Assembly (NCBI RefSeq): GCF_030936135.1
Contig: NC_082617.1
Coordinates: forward strand, 1,732,001-1,796,000
Length of the DNA stretch: 64,000 nt
Reading direction: 5' to 3'
From: Gavia stellata
Taxonomy: Eukaryota; Chordata; Aves; Gaviiformes; Gaviidae
A program made the position numbers and the translations under genes. Shown here piece by piece: positions 2,611-64,000 of the stretch; the first letter of the stretch is position 1, and each line of letters begins with the position of its first letter. Below the pieces are notes generated by a model. That model saw only the letters and a list, made by a program, of their open reading frames with translations. It did not search any database and was not told the origin of the DNA.

Positions 2611-41386
<38,776 letters not shown>

Positions 41387-50340: not shown

Positions 50341-52282
50341 ACGCTTAGATCATCATGCCTACAAAAGCATTAATACTAATTATTCCTAACATTGCATTTG
50401 TCTTTTTGAGCAGCGTGGACCAGTGAGCAGATGTATTCACAGACCAAGTCAAGTAACACTCAGATCTCTTTCTAAGTGCCAATTACCAGCTAACCCTCTC
50501 CTGTGGGTCTTCACCACGTGCATTACATTTCACTGGCAGGCAGTGCTGTTTGCCTGCCAGTCACCGAGAGATTTGTAAGGCTTCTTTTGCAATAGTTCAC
50601 AGTCAACTTTACATTTTACCATAGTAAATAATTTAGAATCATCTTAATCAGATGATTTAGACATCTGTTTATCGCGTTTCCCAGGTTCTGCGGAAATAAA
50701 TGCATACTACTCTCTGTTGTAAGAGCTGAGCATCTATTCCTTTTCCTTGGTTCCTATCTTCTCTCCAATTCCAAAAGCAGAGTGCGTCCTCCCTGCTATT
50801 CCAGGATTATTTAAGGACCAACATACCTTAGAGGAAGTGTCTTGAAAAGCCAGGTGAACAAAGTATGAACTTGTTCGCCTGTTTGCTGATTCCTCAGCTC
50901 TGTTTGTGAGATGTGACTTCTCTGGGCAAGCGGGGTGCTGACTCTTTCCCAGCAGAGCACCTTCATTCCTGTGTCTCTCAGCCCCTTCACTGCAGCATCT
51001 AATGGATTTGCCCAGCATGGTACTGAGACTCATTGGTCTGCCGGTCCCCGAACCACCCATCAAGTCTCTGGTTTTGTGCAACGGATTTATTTATTATGTG
51101 CTTTTATTCCCTTAGTAAGTCGCTCTTGAAAGTCCCTCTTTGACCTGCCTTATTTTGACTTGATCCCTCACTCACCAGGGTTGCTGCTTTCTTCCTTTTC
51201 CCTGTTCAGACAGGACTCACAGCCTGTTCCTCTCTGAAGGATGCCTGTTTACTTCCAACTGTTGTGTTCAGTCTCCTGCGTAATTACACTGGCATTCTTC
51301 TCCTAGAACAGGTTTCCATCACGCCATTTACCTGAATCTTTCATGTGAGGTCTTCAAGCTATTCACCCTGTCTGAATTCACCCTTTTAGTTGCTCCTTTT
51401 GCTTCAGCCAGATGCTCCATTTCTGTGTACTTTTCAATTACTCAGTACTAGGGTGGGTATTTTGAGTTGCTGCTTCTCCTAGAAATCTCTGGCTATATCT
51501 ACATGACAGGTGGCTTTTCTAGAGTTACCTCTTGAACCTGTGCAAATCTTTGGATTAAATCGAGCATTACTTCTCTGCCTCAGTTTTCCAGCCAGCTGGC
51601 ATGCCTGAATAGCCCAACCTTGGCTTTGCACTGATTTATCCTGTCTGCACAGAGGGGACCCAAGTCCCTTGTTACCCCTGTTTTCTGTGCTGGCACCTCT
51701 CTGAGCTGCTCTTGAGCTCTGAGAGACCTGTCAGGGTCCTGTCAGGTGCCCGATATCAAAGCCAGCCCCAACAGCAGGTTCCCCCTTTTTAAGCACGGGA
51801 GAGCAGCTCAGGAGGATGCTGGAGTATTTATTGATCTAATTAACACACCTACTGCATTTAAGACCGCTCTTCCAAGGAAGTGTTATTTTCCTTATGTGCA
51901 GTGGAGTTCCCTTTGCTGCAACTTGCGCTCGTTGCCTCTTCGCTGCGTGTCTCGGAGAAGCGCCCGGCTCTCTCCGCTCCGTAACCCCGAGCTGGCAGCA
52001 GGCTGCGGTTGGACACCCCCCGCCCCCAGTTCGCCTCCCCTTCCCCAAACGAAGCAAACCCCTCTCCCTCAGCCTCTCCTCGCCCCCCCGAGCCTCTCCG
52101 CTCGGCCCCGCCGCGGGTGCTGGGTGGGCTCGCAGCCCCCCCGGGGCCGAGCAGAGGGGATCCCCCCGCGCTCCCACCGCCGCAGCCCGGGAGGCAGCCG
52201 GGGATGCCCGGGGGGTCCCCGGCGTGGGGAGTCCCGTGTCCCCCCGCCCACCGAGCGCCTCCCCGGGCGGGGCCGGCCGCGC

Positions 52283-52289
52283 TATAAGG
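52283..52289 (+). promoter_or_regulatory. TATA-like element TATAAGG
   Basis: TATAAGG in an otherwise GC-only context, 34 bp upstream of the ATG. If used at normal spacing the 5' leader would be only a few nucleotides; otherwise transcription starts further upstream in the island. Confidence 0.35.
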
Positions 52290-52316
52290 GGCGGTGGCGG
52301 CGGGGCCGGGCGCGCT

Positions 52317-52614
52317 ATGGGGAGCGGGTGGGGCGGCGCGGCGCTGCTGGCGGCGGGGCCGGGGCTCGGGGCGCTCCTCTTCCTCCTCCTCCTCTTCCTC
52401 GTCCTGCTGCTGCTGGGCTGCTCCCGGCCGCTGGCGCTGCGGCGCGGCCCCGGGCAGGTGGGCTACCTGCCGGCCCCGGGGCTGAGCCCGGGGCAAGCTG
52501 CCCGCCGCGCCCGCCGCCCCGGTGCCCTGCCGCCGCCCTACCCCAACGGCTGGTACCGCCTGCTCGACTCCGCGCAGCTGCCCCGCGGCGCCGTCCGCAG
52601 CCTCGCCCTGCTCG
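52317..52614 (+). CDS. Rieske oxygenase exon 1 (residues 1-99)
   Basis: The ATG has G at -3 and G at +4. Encodes [11 protein letters not shown], a Leu-rich membrane anchor (about 8-34), a basic Pro/Arg linker and the family start motif [18 protein letters not shown]...LALL. Donor GTGAGT at 52615 after one base of Gly100. The frame stays open into the intron because of the 15-bp repeat there, but the Rieske exon joins exactly at this donor. Confidence 0.88.
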
Positions 52615-55600
52615 GTGAGTGCCGGCCGCCGCCTCCCCCCCGGGCTCCCCCGACCCCCGCCCGGGCAACGGGGGCGACGAGGCTCGGGATCCTGGCCAGT
52701 GAGCAGCGCATCCCTGCCCGGGCATCCCTACCAGGGCATCCCTGCTCGGGCATCCCTACTCAGGCACCCCTACCAGGGCATCCCTGCCCGGGCATTCCTA
52801 CCAGGGCATCCCTACTCAGGCATCCCTACAAGGGCATCCCTGCCCAGGCATCCCTACAAGGGCATCCCTGCCCAGGCATCCCTACAAGGGCATCCCTGCT
52901 CAGGCATCCCTACCAGGGCATCCCTGCCAGGATGCTGGGGCATCCCTACCAGGGCATCCCTGCTCAGGCATCCCCGCTTGGGAATGGGGCATCCCTGCCT
53001 AGGTATTTCTGCTGGGGCACTAAGGCATCCAGGCCAGCGCCCATGCTGGGGCACTGGCACATCGCAGCCGGCATCCCCACAGTGGCACCAGGACATCCCT
53101 GCTCAGACATCCTCACCGGGGCACCAGGACATCCCTGCCTGGGCATCTCTGCCGGGGCACCAGGGCAGGTACTAGGCCATCCCTGCCTGGGCACACCACT
53201 GGGGCACAGGGACATCCCTGCCTGGGCATCCCCACTGAGGCGCTGGGACATCCTCACAGGGATACCCTCACCAGGGCACTGGAGCATCCCAGCCAGCACC
53301 TATGGTGGGGGACTGCGGTGTCCCTGCCCCGGCTCCTTGCCAGCGTGCAGGGCATCCCTGCCAGGGCATCCCTGCCTGAGGTCTGTGCTGTGGCACTGGG
53401 ACAGCTCTGCCCAGGCATCCCTTTCAGGGCACCCCAGCCTGCACCCACATAGGGGCACCAAGGGTGTCACAGCCTGGGCTTTTGCATGGGTGTTGCCCTG
53501 CTGGGGCACATCATGGCACAGGCTTCTTGAGAGTGTGCAGGGCACCCCTGTCTGGGCTCCTTGCTGGGACACCGGAGCATCTCGCCTCCTGGGCTCTCCT
53601 CCCAGGCATCACTGCCTGCAGCTCCCCATGTCCTGGTGAGATCAGAATGGGGCCTCACAGCCACATCCAGTGGGGTGCTGTGCTTGTCCAGGGTCCTTGC
53701 GCCTTGAAGATGTTTTTGGATTTGTGCTGGTGCCTTCGTCATCTGAAGGGATGTTTCTGCATTGAAATCCCTCAGATTCAGTGGTGGTGGGGTTTCTATT
53801 TTCAAGAGCCATCCTCTCCTGTGAAGCTGTTTGGGCTTAGGTTTTTTTTGTATAATGGGACCGACATAATTCAATGTACATGTCCTAGAGAGCCCCCACC
53901 AGCCTATCTGTTATGACTCGGTTTTCTGCCCGAAGACTGGTTCCTGGCACCCAGTCCTCTGGGTCTGGCTGAAATGTGCGGGCAAAATCACTTCTAGTGC
54001 TAGAGTGACAGTAGTGTACGGGTGCCAGGAAGGTCAGTAAACAAGACAGTTAAACAACCTGTAGCCTCCAGGTTTGTGGGTGTCTAATTCGCTTTGGACT
54101 CTGAGCATAGCCTGGAAATGCAGCTCTGCTCCAGAGGCAGCGAGCCAGAGGAGATCAAAGAATAAAAATCTATTGACTCAGTCCCTGCAACACTCATCCT
54201 CTGGGATGGGACACCTTCCAAAACATGGCACTGAGCATGCAGGAAAGCCTCATTCACCCTGAGATTGTGGAAGTGGGGTGAGAGCTGCTCCGGTCTGCGG
54301 GGCATGGTGCAGCACTACTGTCCGGGTACTTGCTGCAGGGAAGCTGCTCAGACCCTGTGAGGCTCCTGCGCCGGAAAGCCCCAGAGGGGATCCTCTGAGC
54401 CACGTGCCCAGAACTGCAGTGGCCTTGGGGCTTTCTATGTTCCATGTGCTATTCTTGCTACAATTGCCGTTTGATTTCCATAAAAGAAATAGGCTCTAAT
54501 AGGAAAACATCAGTATGTGGCTGCTAATGCTCTATAGATATTCACCTGCAATGCAATTTTTCAGTATGCCCAGAACCTCAGGTCAGGTAGAGGCAGGTTA
54601 GAGAGAGAAGAAAATGCTGATGCTTCAGAATGAACCTCTGTTACCTGGGGCAAGGGGAAGGACCTGCACCTTGGGTGCCTCTACTCCCCTGTGCCTGCTG
54701 CCAGCAGGTGTGTGAGAGCCCTCCAGAAAGACTCCAGGGACAACAGAGCCAGGCGTCCTGGGTAAAGGACAGACCTCCAGGCACTGGAGTACAACAACTA
54801 ATTTCTGCCAGACATCAGAAATAATCCTTCCTAGGCTCAAAGGCTGGGAAAGTTTTCAGGGTTTCCTTTTCTTTGCCCAGACCACAAAACTTCAGTCAAG
54901 GAAAGTGGTTTTGGGTGGGATAGCTCACACTGTGTCACTTGTCATCAGTGTGGCTGTCTGGGAAAATACAGACAGAACCTGGCTCCCAAAGTTTAGTTTG
55001 GTCTTATCTCACTAGTTGAGCTTTAAGTTACAGCAACCGCTATAATGATCAGATTTCATAAGCTGATGAAATCTGAATACTTACATGCATAACGTGAAGC
55101 ACAGTATGGAAGAGGGGACCTGGTCTTTAACTCAGTAGCCACGTCTGTATGAACAGCCCCCAAGTGCTTCTGAGCGCCCAGACCAGCTCTGTCCCCTTCC
55201 AACCAAGACATGACTTGAGGCGATGCTGGAGCAGGTCTGGCTTTGCTTTCAGGCCAGGTCACCGATGAGCAGCCCCTCTCCTCTGAGCTGCTGGCAGGGA
55301 TGTGGGTGCTGGCAGGGCTGCAGTGCCGCAGCACCCTCGGAGCAGCTCTGTGCCGGGCCAGGAAAGCACCTGGCACCTATTCAGTCCCTCCAGAAAGAGC
55401 ATTTGTTTCGATAATGCTGTGACATGCCATCCAGCTGCGGTTGCCTTGCACAGCTGGGCGGAGCAGTGCCGTGAACAGACCTACGGCTCTAGCCCAAGAA
55501 CTGTCTGTCTCTCCATTTTAATAGTTCCTTGCTCAGCAAACGCGGTGCTACCCTGGGGGTGGGGAGGAAGAGGGCAATCCCAGAACTGAGCAGGGACAGA

Positions 55601-58600
55601 TCCCAGCAGGACAAACCTCACCTTGCTTCAGGGACCACAAGGAATCAGGCCCAGTGACCGAGAAAAGCAAGTCTGAGCGCTGGGGCAATACAGCCCCAGC
55701 CACTCCAGCACCGACTCTCCTTCACTCACCGCGCAGAGCACACCAGAGCCAGGGGCTTCCCTCCGCTTCACCAGAAAACTCCCTTTTGCCGAGGAGGTGT
55801 CAGCGCTCCGGCTCGCAGCACCCATCCGTCTCTGCCTGAGGAAGGGGTTCTTTGCTGATTTGCAGCATGGACGGCTCTTGTTGTTCAAGAGCAAACAGAT
55901 GAAAGGCTTCTCTTTCCAGCTACCATTACCAGAGATTCCTGAAATGTATGAGCTCGTGCACTTTCCTCTACACCTCTGAGGCAAAGGGACGGGAACAGGG
56001 TTCTTTAAATGCAGCTATTGCTCTGCTCCCTGTGGATCCCTCCCTCAGCAGGGGAAACACCCTAAACCTTTAAATACCTCTGTGAAGGCACCTTTTATCC
56101 TGCAGCTGAAACAGGCTCTGAGAGCTCAAAAACCAGGGCTGAGGGTCAAAGCCATGAGGGTTTAGAGACGACCAAGAGAAATTACGCTCCCTCTGCCTGG
56201 AGCAAGGCCATGCCCTTCAGCACGGACGTTTCTACGCTACAGCAGCCCGTTGGGACTCCGGGCAGCTGCCCGGCTTTGCAGGGTGCCAACGTGCTGCGGT
56301 GAAACCCGGGGTGCGACGGGCCTTGGCACAACCGCGCACTGCTCTGGGATGTCTAAAACCCGGGCAGCGAGCTGACGGCCACCACACCCTGGGCATTTGC
56401 CGCAGCAGCTGCCATCCCGATCTTGCGTGGCCCTTTTTGCAGTCAGCAAATGCCTCCTGCCTGCACCCTGCCAGGTCTCTCCTGCCCCGGCTCTGGCAGC
56501 TGCCTGGTGCCATCTCGTGGTTAAATAACTTCTCCAGAGCAACCCTATTTCAGTCCTGCCACTGCTAGTCCACTAGAAAGGAAAGAAACCCTCCAATATT
56601 AATTTTTAGCACAGTATTTCTGCATGTCTTCGCACAGGCGGATGCCTGCAACTTTGGGTAAAAGTCGGTCAGTGCTGTCTGTTCAGAAGGGGCTGAGCAA
56701 TGTGTGTCGTGTCTTACCTGACCCTCCTCATGTAGGGATGTTGTTTCTATAACTTCATAATCTCTTATTTTGGCAGGAGAACAGCTCGCTGCGTTTCGCA
56801 CCCAGGATGGCCAAGCCTATGTGGTCGACGCTTACTGCCCTCACCTCGGGGCTAACCTCGCCGCTGGCGGGCGTATCGTGGGCAATTGCATCGAATGCCC
56901 GTTTCACGGCTGGCAGTTTCGAGGAGAAGACGGAAAATGCACCCGTATCCCATATGCTGAAAAAGGTGAACATCCCCCAAACCCGCAGAAAGCATCTGCA
57001 GAAATGGTAGTGCATTGTGTATCCTCATTAAAAGCTGCTTCATTAAGAAAAAATGCTCTTTATAATAACTCACTCTCCATCCTGCTCCCCTATTTCATGC
57101 AGCACCCTACTTTTCCTCCTGGGTTGTCCGTGTTGGGGCACAATATTCCAATGCCCTTTCCTAAGTTAGATGATACCTGCGAATTTAGTCCAGTTAAATA
57201 ACCACCCTACTTGATTTTGATAGTCCTACAACTCCTGTATTCAGCAAGCAGGGTATAAAAGAAGATTTTTAATTGGAAGTCATTCATTAAATGGAATTCA
57301 TCCATTGCATCCACAGGGATGGATCCTGAGGAGCTATTGGGTTTTGGGAATGATTCTGTACTCTGTAGCGATAGCTTATACCATGTCAGTGCTTAAGTCT
57401 GTTGCATCAGCATGACAGAATAGTCTCTCAATGGCAATTTTTTTCTCCTTTTAAGGCTTGAAGAGAACTTTTGGTTGGAATCCAGGAAAGCTCTTCGCAT
57501 ACACCTACCACCTAGATGCCTTTTGCGTTGACTGTGTAGGAAGAGTATCTTACTTCAAGTTCACATGTAACAATTACTTGATCTGGCTGCACTTAGTTTA
57601 AATCACCAATTCTAGATGTGGCTGAAACCAGCAGACAGACTTACCTTGAGTTTTGCTTTGGCTTGCACTGCTTAGTTATCTTCCTGAGAAGTTCAGCCTT
57701 CTCTGATTGGGACCGACTGGGATAGCAATGAAAACATTGATTAGCAGCAAAAGTCAGTCTTTCTACTGAATGGACTCTTTTTCCCAAAGTGAAAGAAACA
57801 TTCCGTCTATATGGGATGAGATAAACATTTTATAGATCTGTTACAAAATTCAACCACACATGGGTTACTCTAGGCTTGCTTTATTATCAACTCAGAGTTG
57901 GGCCATCACCTCAGTGAGTGGCACTTGTTAGACAAAAATACACACCTTTTATACCCAGTAACAAACACTACGTAAAGCTCAAAGTCTTTGGTATATTCCC
58001 ACGTATTTCAGTTCTTATTTTTTCTTCATTTATCAAAAAGTCCATCACGATCCCCTGTCTCAGCAACTTCTTGCTTGTCTGGTTCCAATTCCTTTTTTCT
58101 AATTTCAGGGTCGTTCCAGGGATCATCTTTCTTCATTTAGCAACTTGACCTTTTACAATTCTGAGAAAGGACTTTGTGATGTTATCTTCATAGGTCTACT
58201 TGGTTAAGCAATTTTCTACATTTTAATTTTATGACCTTAAAAATATCCTTCTCCAGGTTAATCAATTATCTATTGTTAGTTTCTGATTTCTACTGATTAG
58301 CTCGACTGAGTTTTAAGTCAGCCATGGTTAGGGCTATACAGAGGAGCAGGCCATGGATATAATGTTCATGGCCTGTGAACAGCTTCGTGGTTGTTTCGCT
58401 AACTTCTCACAATTCTGTTTTCAATGTCTTCTTCTTTAAAAATCTATTACAATACTATTGCTTAAGATTTTTCATTTTATTTTACAGATCTCAAACAGCA
58501 ATTCTTTTTTGTGTGTGTGTCTTATTTTCAGGAAAAAGATTAATACTGTATTTTTTTCCCATACATACTTAGTCAGGAGCTGCATTCAAATGAAAATTTG

Positions 58601-61600
58601 GTTCCAAGTAATGGGCAAAGATATGTTTCATCACAAAATGAGAGTGAATTCTGGATATACTAAAACGCTTGCCAAGATGCATTGTTTCATCTGAAATGGC
58701 TGTATTCAGGGTCATTGTTATCTGTAGCTACTAAAAGAATGAAACTGCGGACAGCTGCCCTGCTCCCATACAGCCCAAATGGGTCAGGTTGATTTAAACA
58801 GATTTCAAAGCCATCTGTGCTCATGCAGGTCACTTTGATGGAGAGGGATTTTGGAGAGCTCGGATGGGCAGCTCCTCTGGCACTGGGCTTGCAGGGGACT
58901 GACAGCCAAGCAGAGCCACAGAGCCCAACGTGGTGCTTGATGAAGCTGGTGAGAGGTCTGGACCACAAGTCTGATGAGGAGCAGCTGAGGGAGCTGGGGT
59001 TGTTCAGTCTGGAGAAGAGGAGGCTGAGGGGAGACCTCATCGCTCTCTACAACTACCTGAAAGGGGGTTGTGGTGAGGTGGGTGTTGGTCTCTTCTCCCA
59101 AGTAACAAGCGATAAGATAAGAGGAAATGGCCGCAAATTGCGCCAAGGGAGGTTTAGATTGGATATTAGGAAAAATTTCTTCACCGAAAGGGTTGTCAGG
59201 CATTGGAACAGGCTGCCCAGGGAGGTGGTGGAGTCACCATCCCTGGATGAGGCACTTAGGGACATGTTTTAGTGGTGGACTTGTCAGTGCTAGGTTAATG
59301 GCTGGACTCGATGATCTTAAAGGTCCCTTCCAACCTAAATGATTCTATGATCCTATGTCTGCGTGGGGGCAGATGAAGACCTCTGTAAAATTTAATGAGA
59401 TGCATCCCACCCAAAGCACCAGATTTTTCCAATTGCAGTGATGGTCTCCTCCTGCCCCCTCAATATCAATTTATTGACTAAAAGGGAGACATAATTTCTC
59501 CTATTATTTCACCTCCCACATGACTGTACAGGGCTGAATAATAAGGAAGCACTATTCTCTGTGCTTGTTTGCAAATTAGGAAAAAAAGTAATGAAGGCAA
59601 AAGCCTTCCAATCCAGTAGAAGTCACATTTTCTGACAATTGGGTAAATATAAACACCAAAATTCATTTCACTGGAAGGAGTGCACATATATTCTTAAAGC
59701 AACACATGATACTGCAGTATTTTAACAGAGAATGACTTGAGCTCGAGAAGTAGAGGTGGCTTTTACTCTCTGCACATCTGTAACAAAAAGCATCTCCTTT
59801 TAGCTCATTGAAACTTGAGGATGGTCCATTGATGCAGCAGATGTTTACCTATTCGAACAATTTTAAGAGTAGTGAAAGTGCTTCTGCCTTAAAAAACATA
59901 TGCAAAACACCCAACTGAAATAAAACTGATTTAAGCAAACTCTCTTCTGTGAACTTCAGAAGCTGTTGTCCTTCTTCAGCAGCCTGAAAGCTGGAAAAGT
60001 GTCACCAGAGAGTCTGTGCCACATGAATATCTCCCATAAAGACGATCTCTGAGCCATGGTTCAGGACGAGGTGACTCTTAGCGTCAGCGTCAGCCTTGGA
60101 GATGTCACTTTTAACCAATTGCTTTCTGTCCTCTGCAGTGCCAGATTTTGCAAGAGTCCGGACCTGGCCGTCCTGCGAGGTGAACGGGATGCTGCTGGTC
60201 TGGTACCACTGCGAAGGCTCGGTCCGACGTGGGCAGTGCCCGAGCAGCGGGAGATCACCACCAATGAGTGGGTGTTCCGCGGGCAGACAGAGCACTTGGT
60301 TGACGCGCACATCCAGGTAGGGAGCCCAGTCCCCCCGTGGGGCAGGTCCACACCTGGGTCCTCTCCTATAGTGCAGTTCAGGGACATCTCCTCCCAGTTA
60401 ACCCATTCAGGGACATCTCCTCCCAACTAACCAGGCCCTGCCTGCGCCCAGTGTCATCGCTGCTGCTGGCAGAGCTCAGACCTAGAAATACATCCCTGCG
60501 CCGTATACCGAGAGTACGGCATATGTTCCCCAAACACGGATTGTGGGCTTCTTGAGTAGAGAGCAGATGTTCTGGGTACTTAAAAAGGAATCTGTTAATT
60601 TGCTTTGACTTATAACTGATGCAATTTAAAAAAAGATTCTCTAAGAATTGCTGCACTAAGTGTCAGGAGGCTTTTCAACTCATCGATCACTGAAATGGAA
60701 ACACGCGGTTATTTTGCTCTTAATCTTTATAGTCACCATCACACACTGACAAATGTGCCACGGAGAACAAAATGGCTGCTGCCTCCATCGCCTCTCAGCG
60801 GAAAGGAGTCCAGAAAAGGGGAAACATCTGGTGGCACTGAACAGAAGGGATCGCAGCCGTGGTCCGTGGAGGGAGCTGGGGGCAGCCGCAGGTGGAGGCT
60901 CCTCCAGGAGAGCAATGGGAGGCAGCAGCAGTTTTGAAAATGGGCAATCCCTTGGGATTTTGGACCTTGGGAGATTTTTATATACTTGTCACTGAGCAGA
61001 ACACTTCTATGTGTAAAAATCAGTGACAAAAATGACCCTTAATCTAAAGTACACTTCTCTCCAAAGGCAGTGCCTGCCTGCTGACTAAATCACGCCGAAG
61101 GTGAGTGGGTTAGAAAGAACTGAAGAATTATTAGAAGAAATTAAGAAGGTGCATGAGACACAGGAGATGCGGCTCTGGGAGTGGGCAGAGAAGTTGTGAG
61201 AAGCGGGGAGAATTTGGGAGATTGACAAAATAGTAGTATTTATTTCATGTATGCTTTTCAGTGAAAACCACTGTACATAGGTCTATACCGGGGCCAGCCT
61301 GTGCTACTTGCCAAGCTGGTGGAAAGCTGGTAATAAAGCTGAGTAATAAAGCAGTTAAAACTCCTGAAAAAGTGACATATTGTGGGCAGGCTTTAAAGAT
61401 TCAAAAGGGTTTAAAAATTCAAAAGGGTTTAAAGATTCAAAAGTATGTGAAAACTAGTCTAGGAGGACAAACGCAAAAATGCTTCATTCCTTAGAACTAT
61501 TGCAGGGCCAAAGGAAGGACTTATTTGGAGTCCCAGCTTGTGCAGCTGCAGAAGTTAACATGCGTAGACTTCTTGGAGCTTAAAATGAAGTCTGAATTTT

Positions 61601-62394
61601 CTGAGCTTCATGTTTAAATTATTTCTATACACTAGTTAAGAATTAGTCCTAAGTCAGTCTGTGCTAAGGCCCCTTCCTCCACACACTCGGTAGCCTTTTG
61701 CTGTGACATTGTGACATGTACCTGCGAACATCTCTGCTGTGCTCGGGGTGACACACCCTGGGCTGTACTGCAGTGCTATTGCAATATTGCTGTGAAGTAT
61801 AGGCAGCTCGCACCCAATGCAGCTCTCACCGATGGTAAATTGTCCCCCAATGGCAGGAAATCCCTGAGAACGCGGCCGACACGGCTCACCTGGCATTTCT
61901 CCACGGACCGGCTATTCTGGGTGGATCCGATCTGAGATACACAAGGTCCAAGCTGTGGGATTTTATGAAGCACATCTGGAAGGTAAGACCCTAGCTCCCC
62001 TCTTAGCTGTGAGAGGGTCAAAGTCTTTCAAACCAGGTCCCTTTTATGCTGCAAAGTGTCAGTCCCACCTCACCCCCTCTGCCGCATCCCCCCACCTTCA
62101 TGTCCAGTCTCTTTTCCATGTCTGTGAGGGTTTTAGCTGCACTCCCTCGTCTGTGCTCATCTCTAGATGGTCTTCACAGCCAGCTCTTGTCAGCATCTCG
62201 CTGCTACCTCCCCTCAGCCTATAGTCCCGTCTCCCCATCTCTTGGACTGAGCCGACACTTCTCCACCCGTCCAGGCGGAGTGGTGGCCGGAGCCGGAGCC
62301 CAACAAGCATTGCTCCCGGCTGCTGGTTCAACACACCGCGACTGCCTTCGGGAAGCACGTCTCCTTGATGGATTTGACAGTTTCAGTCAGGCAG
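52317..62394 (+). CDS. Neverland/DAF-36-like Rieske oxygenase (cholesterol 7-desaturase), 5 exons, partial and frameshifted
   Basis: Homologues convert cholesterol to 7-dehydrocholesterol, using a Rieske [2Fe-2S] cluster to pass electrons to a mononuclear iron. Exons at 52317-52614, 56777-56965, 60139-60316, 61857-61982 and 62275-62394 join by GT-AG sites. Residues 8-34 form a membrane anchor; [11 protein letters not shown] follows at 75-85. The Rieske ligands are C120, H122, C140 and H143, and the iron motif E226, D230, H233, H238 is in exon 4 (numbering assumes exon 3 restored to phase). Exon 3 needs one more base near 60216-60226; as written, the frame runs into TGA at 61933. The C-terminal third of the family is not seen by 64,000. 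Mammals lack this gene; insects, nematodes, fish and frogs have it. Whether this copy is active depends on whether the indel is real. Confidence 0.88.
52615..56776 (+). other. Rieske oxygenase intron 1
   Basis: 4.2 kb. The first 1 kb is the 15-bp minisatellite; the rest shows no exon or mobile element I recognise. Confidence 0.7.
52707..53620 (+). repeat. 15-bp minisatellite (GGGCATCCCTACCAG-type unit)
   Basis: Near-perfect 15-bp units from about 52,707 to 52,975, then increasingly irregular longer units (GGGGCACTGGGACATCCCTGC-like) to about 53,620. Because 15 is a multiple of three, several frames stay open, producing long repeat-peptide open frames that are not genes. Confidence 0.9.
56777..56965 (+). 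CDS. Rieske oxygenase exon 2, [2Fe-2S] domain (residues 100-162)
   Basis: Encodes [48 protein letters not shown] and CTRIPYAEK. The CxH...CxxH cluster has 17 residues between H122 and C140. Acceptor TTGGCAG, donor GTGAAC, phase 1 at both ends. Confidence 0.95.
56966..60138 (+). other. Rieske oxygenase intron 2
   Basis: 3.2 kb between the Rieske exon and the frameshifted exon. AT-rich at 57,900-58,700, with a CR1 fragment at 58.94-59.36 kb. No further exon of this family is expected or seen. Confidence 0.7.
58940..59357 (+). mobile_element. CR1 LINE, truncated 3' end
   Basis: Recognisable from GGTGAGAGGTCTGGACCACA through the segment GGCTGAGGGGAGACCTCATC, the segment AGGTTTAGATTGGATATTAG, to CCTTCCAACCTAAATGATTC and the closing ATTCTATGATCCTATG. 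This is the usual 5'-truncated bird CR1, in the sense direction of the host gene. Around 59,245-59,255 the part between CCATCCCTGGA and GGCACTTAGGGACATG is shorter than in the common consensus. Confidence 0.93.
60139..60316 (+). CDS. Rieske oxygenase exon 3, contains a one-base frame break
   Basis: The 5' half reads [20 protein letters not shown] then WYHCEG in the frame set by exon 2. The 3' half reads [20 protein letters not shown] then [11 protein letters not shown], but one frame over, ending exactly at a codon border before exon 4. Both halves are conserved in the family. The shift lies between about 60216 and 60226 (GGCTCGGTCCG). The 178-nt length should be 179. Acceptor CTGCAG, donor GTAGGG. 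Confidence 0.9.
60317..61856 (+). other. Rieske oxygenase intron 3
   Basis: 1.5 kb, including a small 18-bp tandem repeat; otherwise nothing recognised. Confidence 0.7.
61392..61445 (+). repeat. 18-bp tandem repeat, three copies
   Basis: TTTAAAGATTCAAAAGGG at 61392, 61410 and 61428, with single-base changes in copies 2 and 3. Confidence 0.85.
61857..61982 (+). CDS. Rieske oxygenase exon 4, mononuclear iron site (residues 223-264)
   Basis: 42 codons in phase 0, starting [16 protein letters not shown], which contains EX3DX2HX4H, then [17 protein letters not shown] to HIWK. All four iron-site residues are present. Acceptor TGGCAG, donor GTAAGA. In the shifted frame coming from exon 3 it hits TGA at 61933-61935. 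Confidence 0.94.
62275..62394 (+). CDS. Rieske oxygenase exon 5 (residues 265-304)
   Basis: 40 codons in phase 0: [20 protein letters not shown] to [11 protein letters not shown]. This matches the part of Neverland just before the conserved C-terminal GPG segment. Acceptor GTCCAG, donor GTATGT. Confidence 0.88.
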
Positions 62395-64000
62395 GTATGT
62401 CCCGCGCCGGTGACCGCCAGTACCCCGAGCTGAAGGGCTTTGTCACCCAAAAGGCTAAGTGAGTCCTGGCCCATCCTGCCCAGTGTAGCCTTTCCTACCA
62501 AGTGCATCAGACACACGGGCCAAAAACTACACACTGGCATTGGGGCTGCTCCACAGCTGGGCAGCATGGAGGAAAGGGAGAGTTTGCAAGGACTGCTGTG
62601 CCCACAAAACAACTGAAAAAAATAAATAGCTAGTACCTAAGCAAAGACAGGCGGAAATCCCAAGGGACCTTCACACCACAGTGTCACAGTGCTTTACAGA
62701 ACAGAAGTGTGGACCTTTTCAGTCCATGGCAAACATGCCTGGGAAAGGTGTAGAGAGCACTCAATATACAGTGAGAAACGTTTTAAGGATGTTGATCTGT
62801 GTGATCCAAAAAACTCAGGGTTTTTCAGACAGCTTTCTGGAAAGCACAAAGATTCATCAGTTTACAAACATTTACACAAAAGAAATAAATTCATACTATT
62901 GTCAAGAGCTCCTTCTGCAATTAAAAGTTCACTCATTTTCTTATTTTCTTCCTTTCTCATATTTTTGGGTTTTGTTTTGGAAACTGTTACTAACCACACT
63001 TCTCTTTCCTCTGTCCACTTCCAAAAAGTAAGAAACGGTGTGTCTTGTAGCCCAAGAGCAGCCCTGAATGAGATAATAAAACAGTTGACACAAATTGATG
63101 AAGAATTAAAGGAAAATAGAAATAATGCCACTAAACATGAATCAATGGGAACTAGATGTTCTCACTTTCATTTCTGGTTGTGCGGTTTCTTTTTTTTGAT
63201 GGAATGCTAAGCTTGCCTGATAAAACCAGTAACTTTGTTCTAGTACATTTTTTAAGGCATTTGACCTGTTCCCATATTACAAATTCAGAAGAATAGGAAA
63301 ACAAGTCATGATTCAAAATTTTGATAAGGGGTAGATCTTGGCGTGATTAGCAAATTATCACAAAGCGGATGTTGATTGTACCTCTGTTCAATTCTTTGAG
63401 CTGTGCTATTTAGCACTGATATCAATGAACAGGAGAAAAAAGACATTAAAACAACCTTACAAAGAGTTTGTACCCAACCAACCATTAAAGGAGTAGTAAA
63501 TAAAGTAGCCAAAAAAACCCCAGCAATATCTGCACTGCTTCAAAGAACGAAGTGTATGACCATGAATTTGTATGTCTGGATGCACGTCAAAGAGCAGAGA
63601 ACAAGTGCTTTGTGTCATACAAGATAAAAGGCTGAACCTGATTTCAGCTAAAACCTAATGTGACTGCTGTAGCTGCAAAGGAGAAAGGCCGAGCAGGAGT
63701 AGGGATGTTGTATTACCTCCATATTGTATTGCAATCGCTGCTACTGAGATTGGAGCCCAGGACTGGTGTCAACAATCCAACAAGGCTGTTGATGACCTGA
63801 AGGTAATTCAACGATGAACAAGATCAAGTGAAAATTTGGAAGCATTTCCTAGACGATTAGATTTTAAACTTTTTGGGACCAGTAGAGCCCTGTAAACCCT
63901 CATGAATTCCCATGGGCCCACAGTGGAGCCACCCAGCCCTGACACATCTGTGAATGTTCCAGGCCAACACGGGCTCCATGGCTCTGCTGGCCTTCCTGGG
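62395..64000 (+). other. Sequence after Rieske oxygenase exon 5, final exon not identified
   Basis: An AT-rich 1.6 kb in which the expected C-terminal segment (beginning VGPG in relatives) is not visible. Short open frames around 62.7-63.8 kb have no recognised family; they could be decayed repeat sequence. A possible acceptor (TTCCAG) lies at about 63,961 with an open frame to the window edge, too short to judge. Confidence 0.5.

Follow-up and report, generated by a model that had tools for sequence, protein, structure and literature searches.

Does a bird carry a working cholesterol 7-desaturase of the Neverland/DAF-36 type beside GRIN1? The question is raised by 64,000 nucleotides of the Gavia stellata genome (NCBI RefSeq assembly GCF_030936135.1, contig NC_082617.1, positions 1,732,001 to 1,796,000 of the forward strand; hereafter the window, whose first letter is position 1), in which an original prediction, made from the letters and their open reading frames, placed such a gene at 52317..62394. 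Judging from its domains and motifs and from published listings, the locus holds a seven-exon gene, very probably the bird orthologue of the cholesterol 7,8-desaturase Neverland/DAF-36. As assembled, the gene cannot encode the whole enzyme: the reading frame is broken in exon 3, and the product is truncated and lacks the iron site. A known gene had therefore been rightly recognised and its completeness overstated; the novelty is low, and the exon 3 lesion is the point worth a second look.

Exon structure and family of the gene

Five of the exons lie in the window, all on the forward strand. Exon 1 (52317..52614) starts with ATG, which is followed by a hydrophobic run of 18 residues in the translation; it reaches the onset of the Rieske region and ends in phase 1 at the donor GTGAGT. 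Exon 2 (56777..56965; 189 nucleotides) retains phase 1 and carries the Rieske [2Fe-2S] core, with the motif CPH-X17-CPFH at 56836-56907, which fits C-X-H-X16-17-C-X2-H. Exon 3 (60139..60316; 178 nucleotides), which contains the frame break, encodes the end of the Rieske domain and the linker joining it to the catalytic domain. Exon 4 (61857..61982; 126 nucleotides, phase 0) carries the non-haem iron motif E-X3-D-X2-H-X4-H at 61866-61904 in its own phase-0 frame, and exon 5 (62275..62394; 120 nucleotides, phase 0) encodes a portion of the KshA_C-type catalytic domain. The ligands and exon phases are read directly, and the five exons and their junctions are as originally predicted, with AG/GT ends at each. 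They are not the gene's entire product, as had been supposed, for the gene continues past 62394. Neither Pfam nor a profile of 20 bacterial homologues found a terminal exon within 62395-64000; on the adjoining stretch, the same profile found exon 6 (6.1e-15) at 64209-64385 and exon 7 (0.00018) at 65792-65953, numbered as in the window and past its end. Both are in phase and have proper splice ends, and the reading closes with KEGLDW before the stop codon of exon 7. The whole gene covers about 13.6 kb in seven coding exons, six of which are undamaged.

Searches with an upstream and a downstream piece of the translation show a similarity to Rieske oxygenases that is above chance. In Pfam, the upstream piece matched Rieske (5.8e-23), and the downstream piece inside the window matched KshA_C (2.1e-08). 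With exons 6 and 7 added, the KshA_C match (PF19298) reached 8.7e-28 and covered profile positions 10-207 of 207, and VanA_C stayed below its cut-off for this longer piece. In the PDB, the best matches of the upstream piece were KshA chains (4qdc, 1.4e-25; 2zyl; 4qdf), as was that of the downstream piece with exons 6 and 7 (KshA, 8.1e-09). All 11 NCBIfam matches of the upstream piece were under the cut-off, and the downstream piece had none. When the window was scanned in six frames with the bacterial profile, only four frames passed the inclusion threshold: exon 2 (4.2e-30), exon 1 (4.2e-07), exon 4 (0.0017) and the 5' half of exon 3 (0.0082). In that scan the 3' half of exon 3 was not significant by itself (E value 28), and exon 5 did not appear among the matches; the assignments of these two come from the longer downstream piece.

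A scan of prokaryotic genomes gave 89 relatives, of which 80 were kept (L001-L080), and the ten best were 40-49% identical to the bird sequence over the Rieske part. One gammaproteobacterial relative (L066) was 52% identical in its best segment. In BLAST against filtered prokaryotic proteins, 68/68 matched the upstream piece and 15/68 the shorter downstream piece. The bird residue is the commonest one in 44 of the 48 columns that are conserved in at least 18 of the 20 aligned homologues; in the remaining four columns the changes are V to I, D to T, F to L and P to G.

A Rieske domain is also shared by RFESD, CMAH and AIFM3-like proteins, from which one could argue that the locus belongs to a different Rieske family. 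RFESD/CMAH-like proteins are defined by having a Rieske domain but no KshA_C catalytic domain, and here KshA_C is present. It is found almost end to end and with the iron motif, the best solved structures are KshA, and at least seven further Rieske matches among those listed in this genome lie on five other contigs. Membership of another family is thus extremely unlikely. The call of a Neverland/DAF-36-like Rieske sterol oxygenase beside GRIN1 agrees with Pfam and the PDB, neither of which gave a best hit to another Rieske family, the outcome that the original prediction had named as speaking against it. Family and domain order are direct observations.

Several points nevertheless weigh against identifying the locus as a Neverland orthologue. 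The KshA match of the downstream piece with exons 6 and 7 falls mostly in the last exon, and the piece lacking these exons had no relevant match in the PDB. The orthology is drawn from published listings and family motifs, the sequences compared being bacterial ones and KshA only. An unbroken product is also absent from the printed sequence, although the broken frame bears on the function of the printed allele and not on its descent.

By analogy with known relatives, an intact product would be a Rieske oxygenase anchored in the membrane. Electrons would pass from the [2Fe-2S] cluster, held by the Cys and His residues of CPH...CPFH, to the mononuclear iron of the E-D-H-H motif, where iron and O2 would remove two hydrogens at C7-C8 of cholesterol to give 7-dehydrocholesterol, or provitamin D3. 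The 7-desaturase function of this gene is likewise predicted from relatives, Neverland being described in PMC3076616 and PMC7609953 as the enzyme that converts cholesterol to 7-dehydrocholesterol.

Repeats occur at several places in and around the gene. The start codon sits in a 33-base tandem repeat (52265-52336, 2.2 copies), whose upstream unit has GCGCTATAAGGGGCGG and whose downstream unit has GCGCTATGGGGAGCGG. As these two strings occupy paired units, the TATA-like site and the region around the ATG are repeat copies of each other. Intron 1 opens with a minisatellite-like stretch (52704-53376) whose units are roughly 14 bases long; at 52708-52925 its period is 56 bases. Intron 2 holds at 58940-59360 what we take to be the tail of a CR1-like repeat, a feature in keeping with an avian origin. 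Scanning the window against Rfam and for tRNA genes gave no matches.

The frame break in exon 3

Exon 3 is one base short for joining phase 1, in which exon 2 ends, to phase 0, in which exon 4 begins. In the frame entered from exon 2, its 5' half encodes 26 residues ending in VWYHCEG; the 31 residues of its 3' half (PTWAVPEQ...HIQ) are found only in another frame. The break lies at 60219..60223 on the forward strand, five bases between the last codon of clear homology in the upstream frame (60216-60218) and the first in the downstream frame (60224-60226). At this place, two residues are present in 10 of the 20 aligned bacterial homologues and 1, 3, 7 or 8 in the other 10; the homologues fit the expected length but do not fix it alone.

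The remaining six exons have open frames whose phases agree. Spliced literally, the gene meets a TGA at 61933-61935 after 247 residues, and the E-D-H-H ligands lie in a different frame from the Rieske domain. The original prediction had described a complete metal-site apparatus in an intact, retained enzyme. Both CxH...CxxH and the iron motif are indeed present, but they do not share one continuous frame and are not part of one product, and the printed gene is not intact. The distance from this TGA to the end of exon 4 is 47 nucleotides, and to the two junctions that follow 167 and 344 nucleotides of mRNA. With a stop so placed, nonsense-mediated decay of the transcript would be expected.

Real lesion, sequence error or bypass

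We considered what could produce such a break in an otherwise preserved gene. One possible explanation is that the lesion is real and is fixed or common in the species, so that the enzyme was lost recently and decay has yet to reach the rest of the gene. In favour of this explanation, the break falls outside homopolymers: exon 3 has a single run of four or more identical bases, at 60146. This placement also argues against an error of assembly or sequencing, the other main explanation, in which the bird's gene works and the printed sequence is wrong or carries a rare allele.

The neighbouring gene, GRIN1 (GluN1), served as a control on assembly quality. Its approximate coding extent is 8734..41317 on the reverse strand, the low end being placed by a C-terminal motif. 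The 14 fragments aligned with GluN1 of solved structure contain no internal frame break, and the pieces outside the aligned query are open reading frames. A gene so near that is clean across about 700 aligned residues favours a real lesion over an error, GRIN1 being the sole gauge of the local error rate.

The copy searches covered the whole assembly (1,320,717,556 bases in 1185 contigs) and scored the best candidates only. Exon 2, in a protein search, and exon 3, in a DNA search, each had a single match in these 1.32 Gb. A second intact copy elsewhere was thus not seen among the best candidates scored, and that no duplicate of either exon was reported likewise fits a real lesion.

Other observations point towards an error or a rare allele. 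The lesion is a lone one: the other exons, splice sites, ligands and stop codon are intact, which tells against a real loss, and the 44 conserved columns kept out of 48 are equally expected of a working gene with one sequence error. In addition, the contig is 13,938,045 bases long, the size of a microchromosome, and exon 3 has 63% GC; GC-rich microchromosomes are harder to polish.

It is also conceivable that the transcript bypasses the break, by a cryptic donor or by ribosomal frameshifting. A cryptic donor, GAG/GTGAAC, lies at 60180 in phase 0, upstream of the break, and would join exon 4 in frame; the resulting reading is open through exon 5 and retains both metal motifs. Both frames of exon 3 are open as well. 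However, use of this donor would drop the last 137 bases of exon 3, that is, the conserved end of the Rieske domain and the linker to the iron site, and the product probably would not fold. We also looked for rescue of the frame by other routes. If exon 3 is skipped, alone or along with exon 2, a stop follows at once, and exon 3 contains no slippery heptamer of the form XXXYYYZ (Y being A, C or T). The lack of these escapes is in keeping with a real lesion, and that of the heptamer speaks against frameshifting in particular. Overall, a bypass of either kind is very improbable.

Because the six other exons are open, exons 2 and 3 have single matches and GRIN1 is clean, the locus reflects either recent inactivation or an assembly error. 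We give an even chance to an error or rare allele in a bird whose Neverland gene works. A real lesion, fixed or common in the species, is a serious contender that falls somewhat short of even.

Significance and known relatives

The presence of Neverland in a bird is not new, as a chicken orthologue is already listed. PMC7609953 includes chicken XP_425346.2 among the Neverland relatives, together with proteins of zebrafish, frog, Anolis and two further squamates; according to the same paper, the worm and chicken proteins are 44.0% identical. A table note in PMC4967820 gives the distribution as 'vertebrates, except mammals', and PMC3076616 (2011) terms the role of the non-mammalian vertebrate Neverland not elucidated. 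With the chicken orthologue and the mammalian absence in print in these three sources, the novelty suggested for the locus is weak. A literature search with thin subscription coverage turned up nothing on birds having lost Neverland. A later paper in the Journal of Biological Chemistry (2011) reportedly tested vertebrate enzymes in cells.

The genome also has matches to the ERG4/ERG24 family at two places (11 rows, at C2:2093227-2102282 and C17:4709537-4711122), which we take to be DHCR7 and LBR. Some of the C2 rows contain stops, which may only reflect reading beyond exon ends. One tentative reading, which we hold to be possible though not the likelier outcome, is that this bird recently lost Neverland by the one-base lesion in exon 3 while keeping its ERG4/ERG24-family (DHCR7-type) genes. 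If the lesion is true, birds that have a working copy and birds that lack one would form a natural experiment on the vertebrate enzyme, for example on the supply of provitamin D3, and a comparison of intact and broken bird lineages could tell whether the enzyme matters for it. If the lesion is an error, the locus is a further orthologue of a gene already known.

Among known systems, the Neverland/DAF-36 family, represented by chicken XP_425346.2 in PMC7609953, has the same Rieske and E/D-X3-D-X2-H-X4-H motifs and the same KshA-like architecture. The printed bird sequence differs from it by the frame break in exon 3, which falls between the two motifs. Bacterial KshA (4qdc, 2zyl, 4qdf) has the two-domain layout and the KshA_C domain in common with the bird gene. 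It is the oxygenase of 3-ketosteroid 9alpha-hydroxylase and hydroxylates C9 of 3-ketosteroids; it lacks an N-terminal anchor and is encoded without introns. Relatives from Chitinophagales, Gemmatimonadetes, Luminiphilus and Nannocystis are 43-49% identical to the bird sequence over the Rieske part, with the exception of the weaker L069. The bacterial relatives and exon 7 of the bird share the C-terminal pattern IW..K....PL......D....R.WY.QFY, but these relatives are prokaryotic and encoded in single open frames, unlike the seven-exon bird gene.

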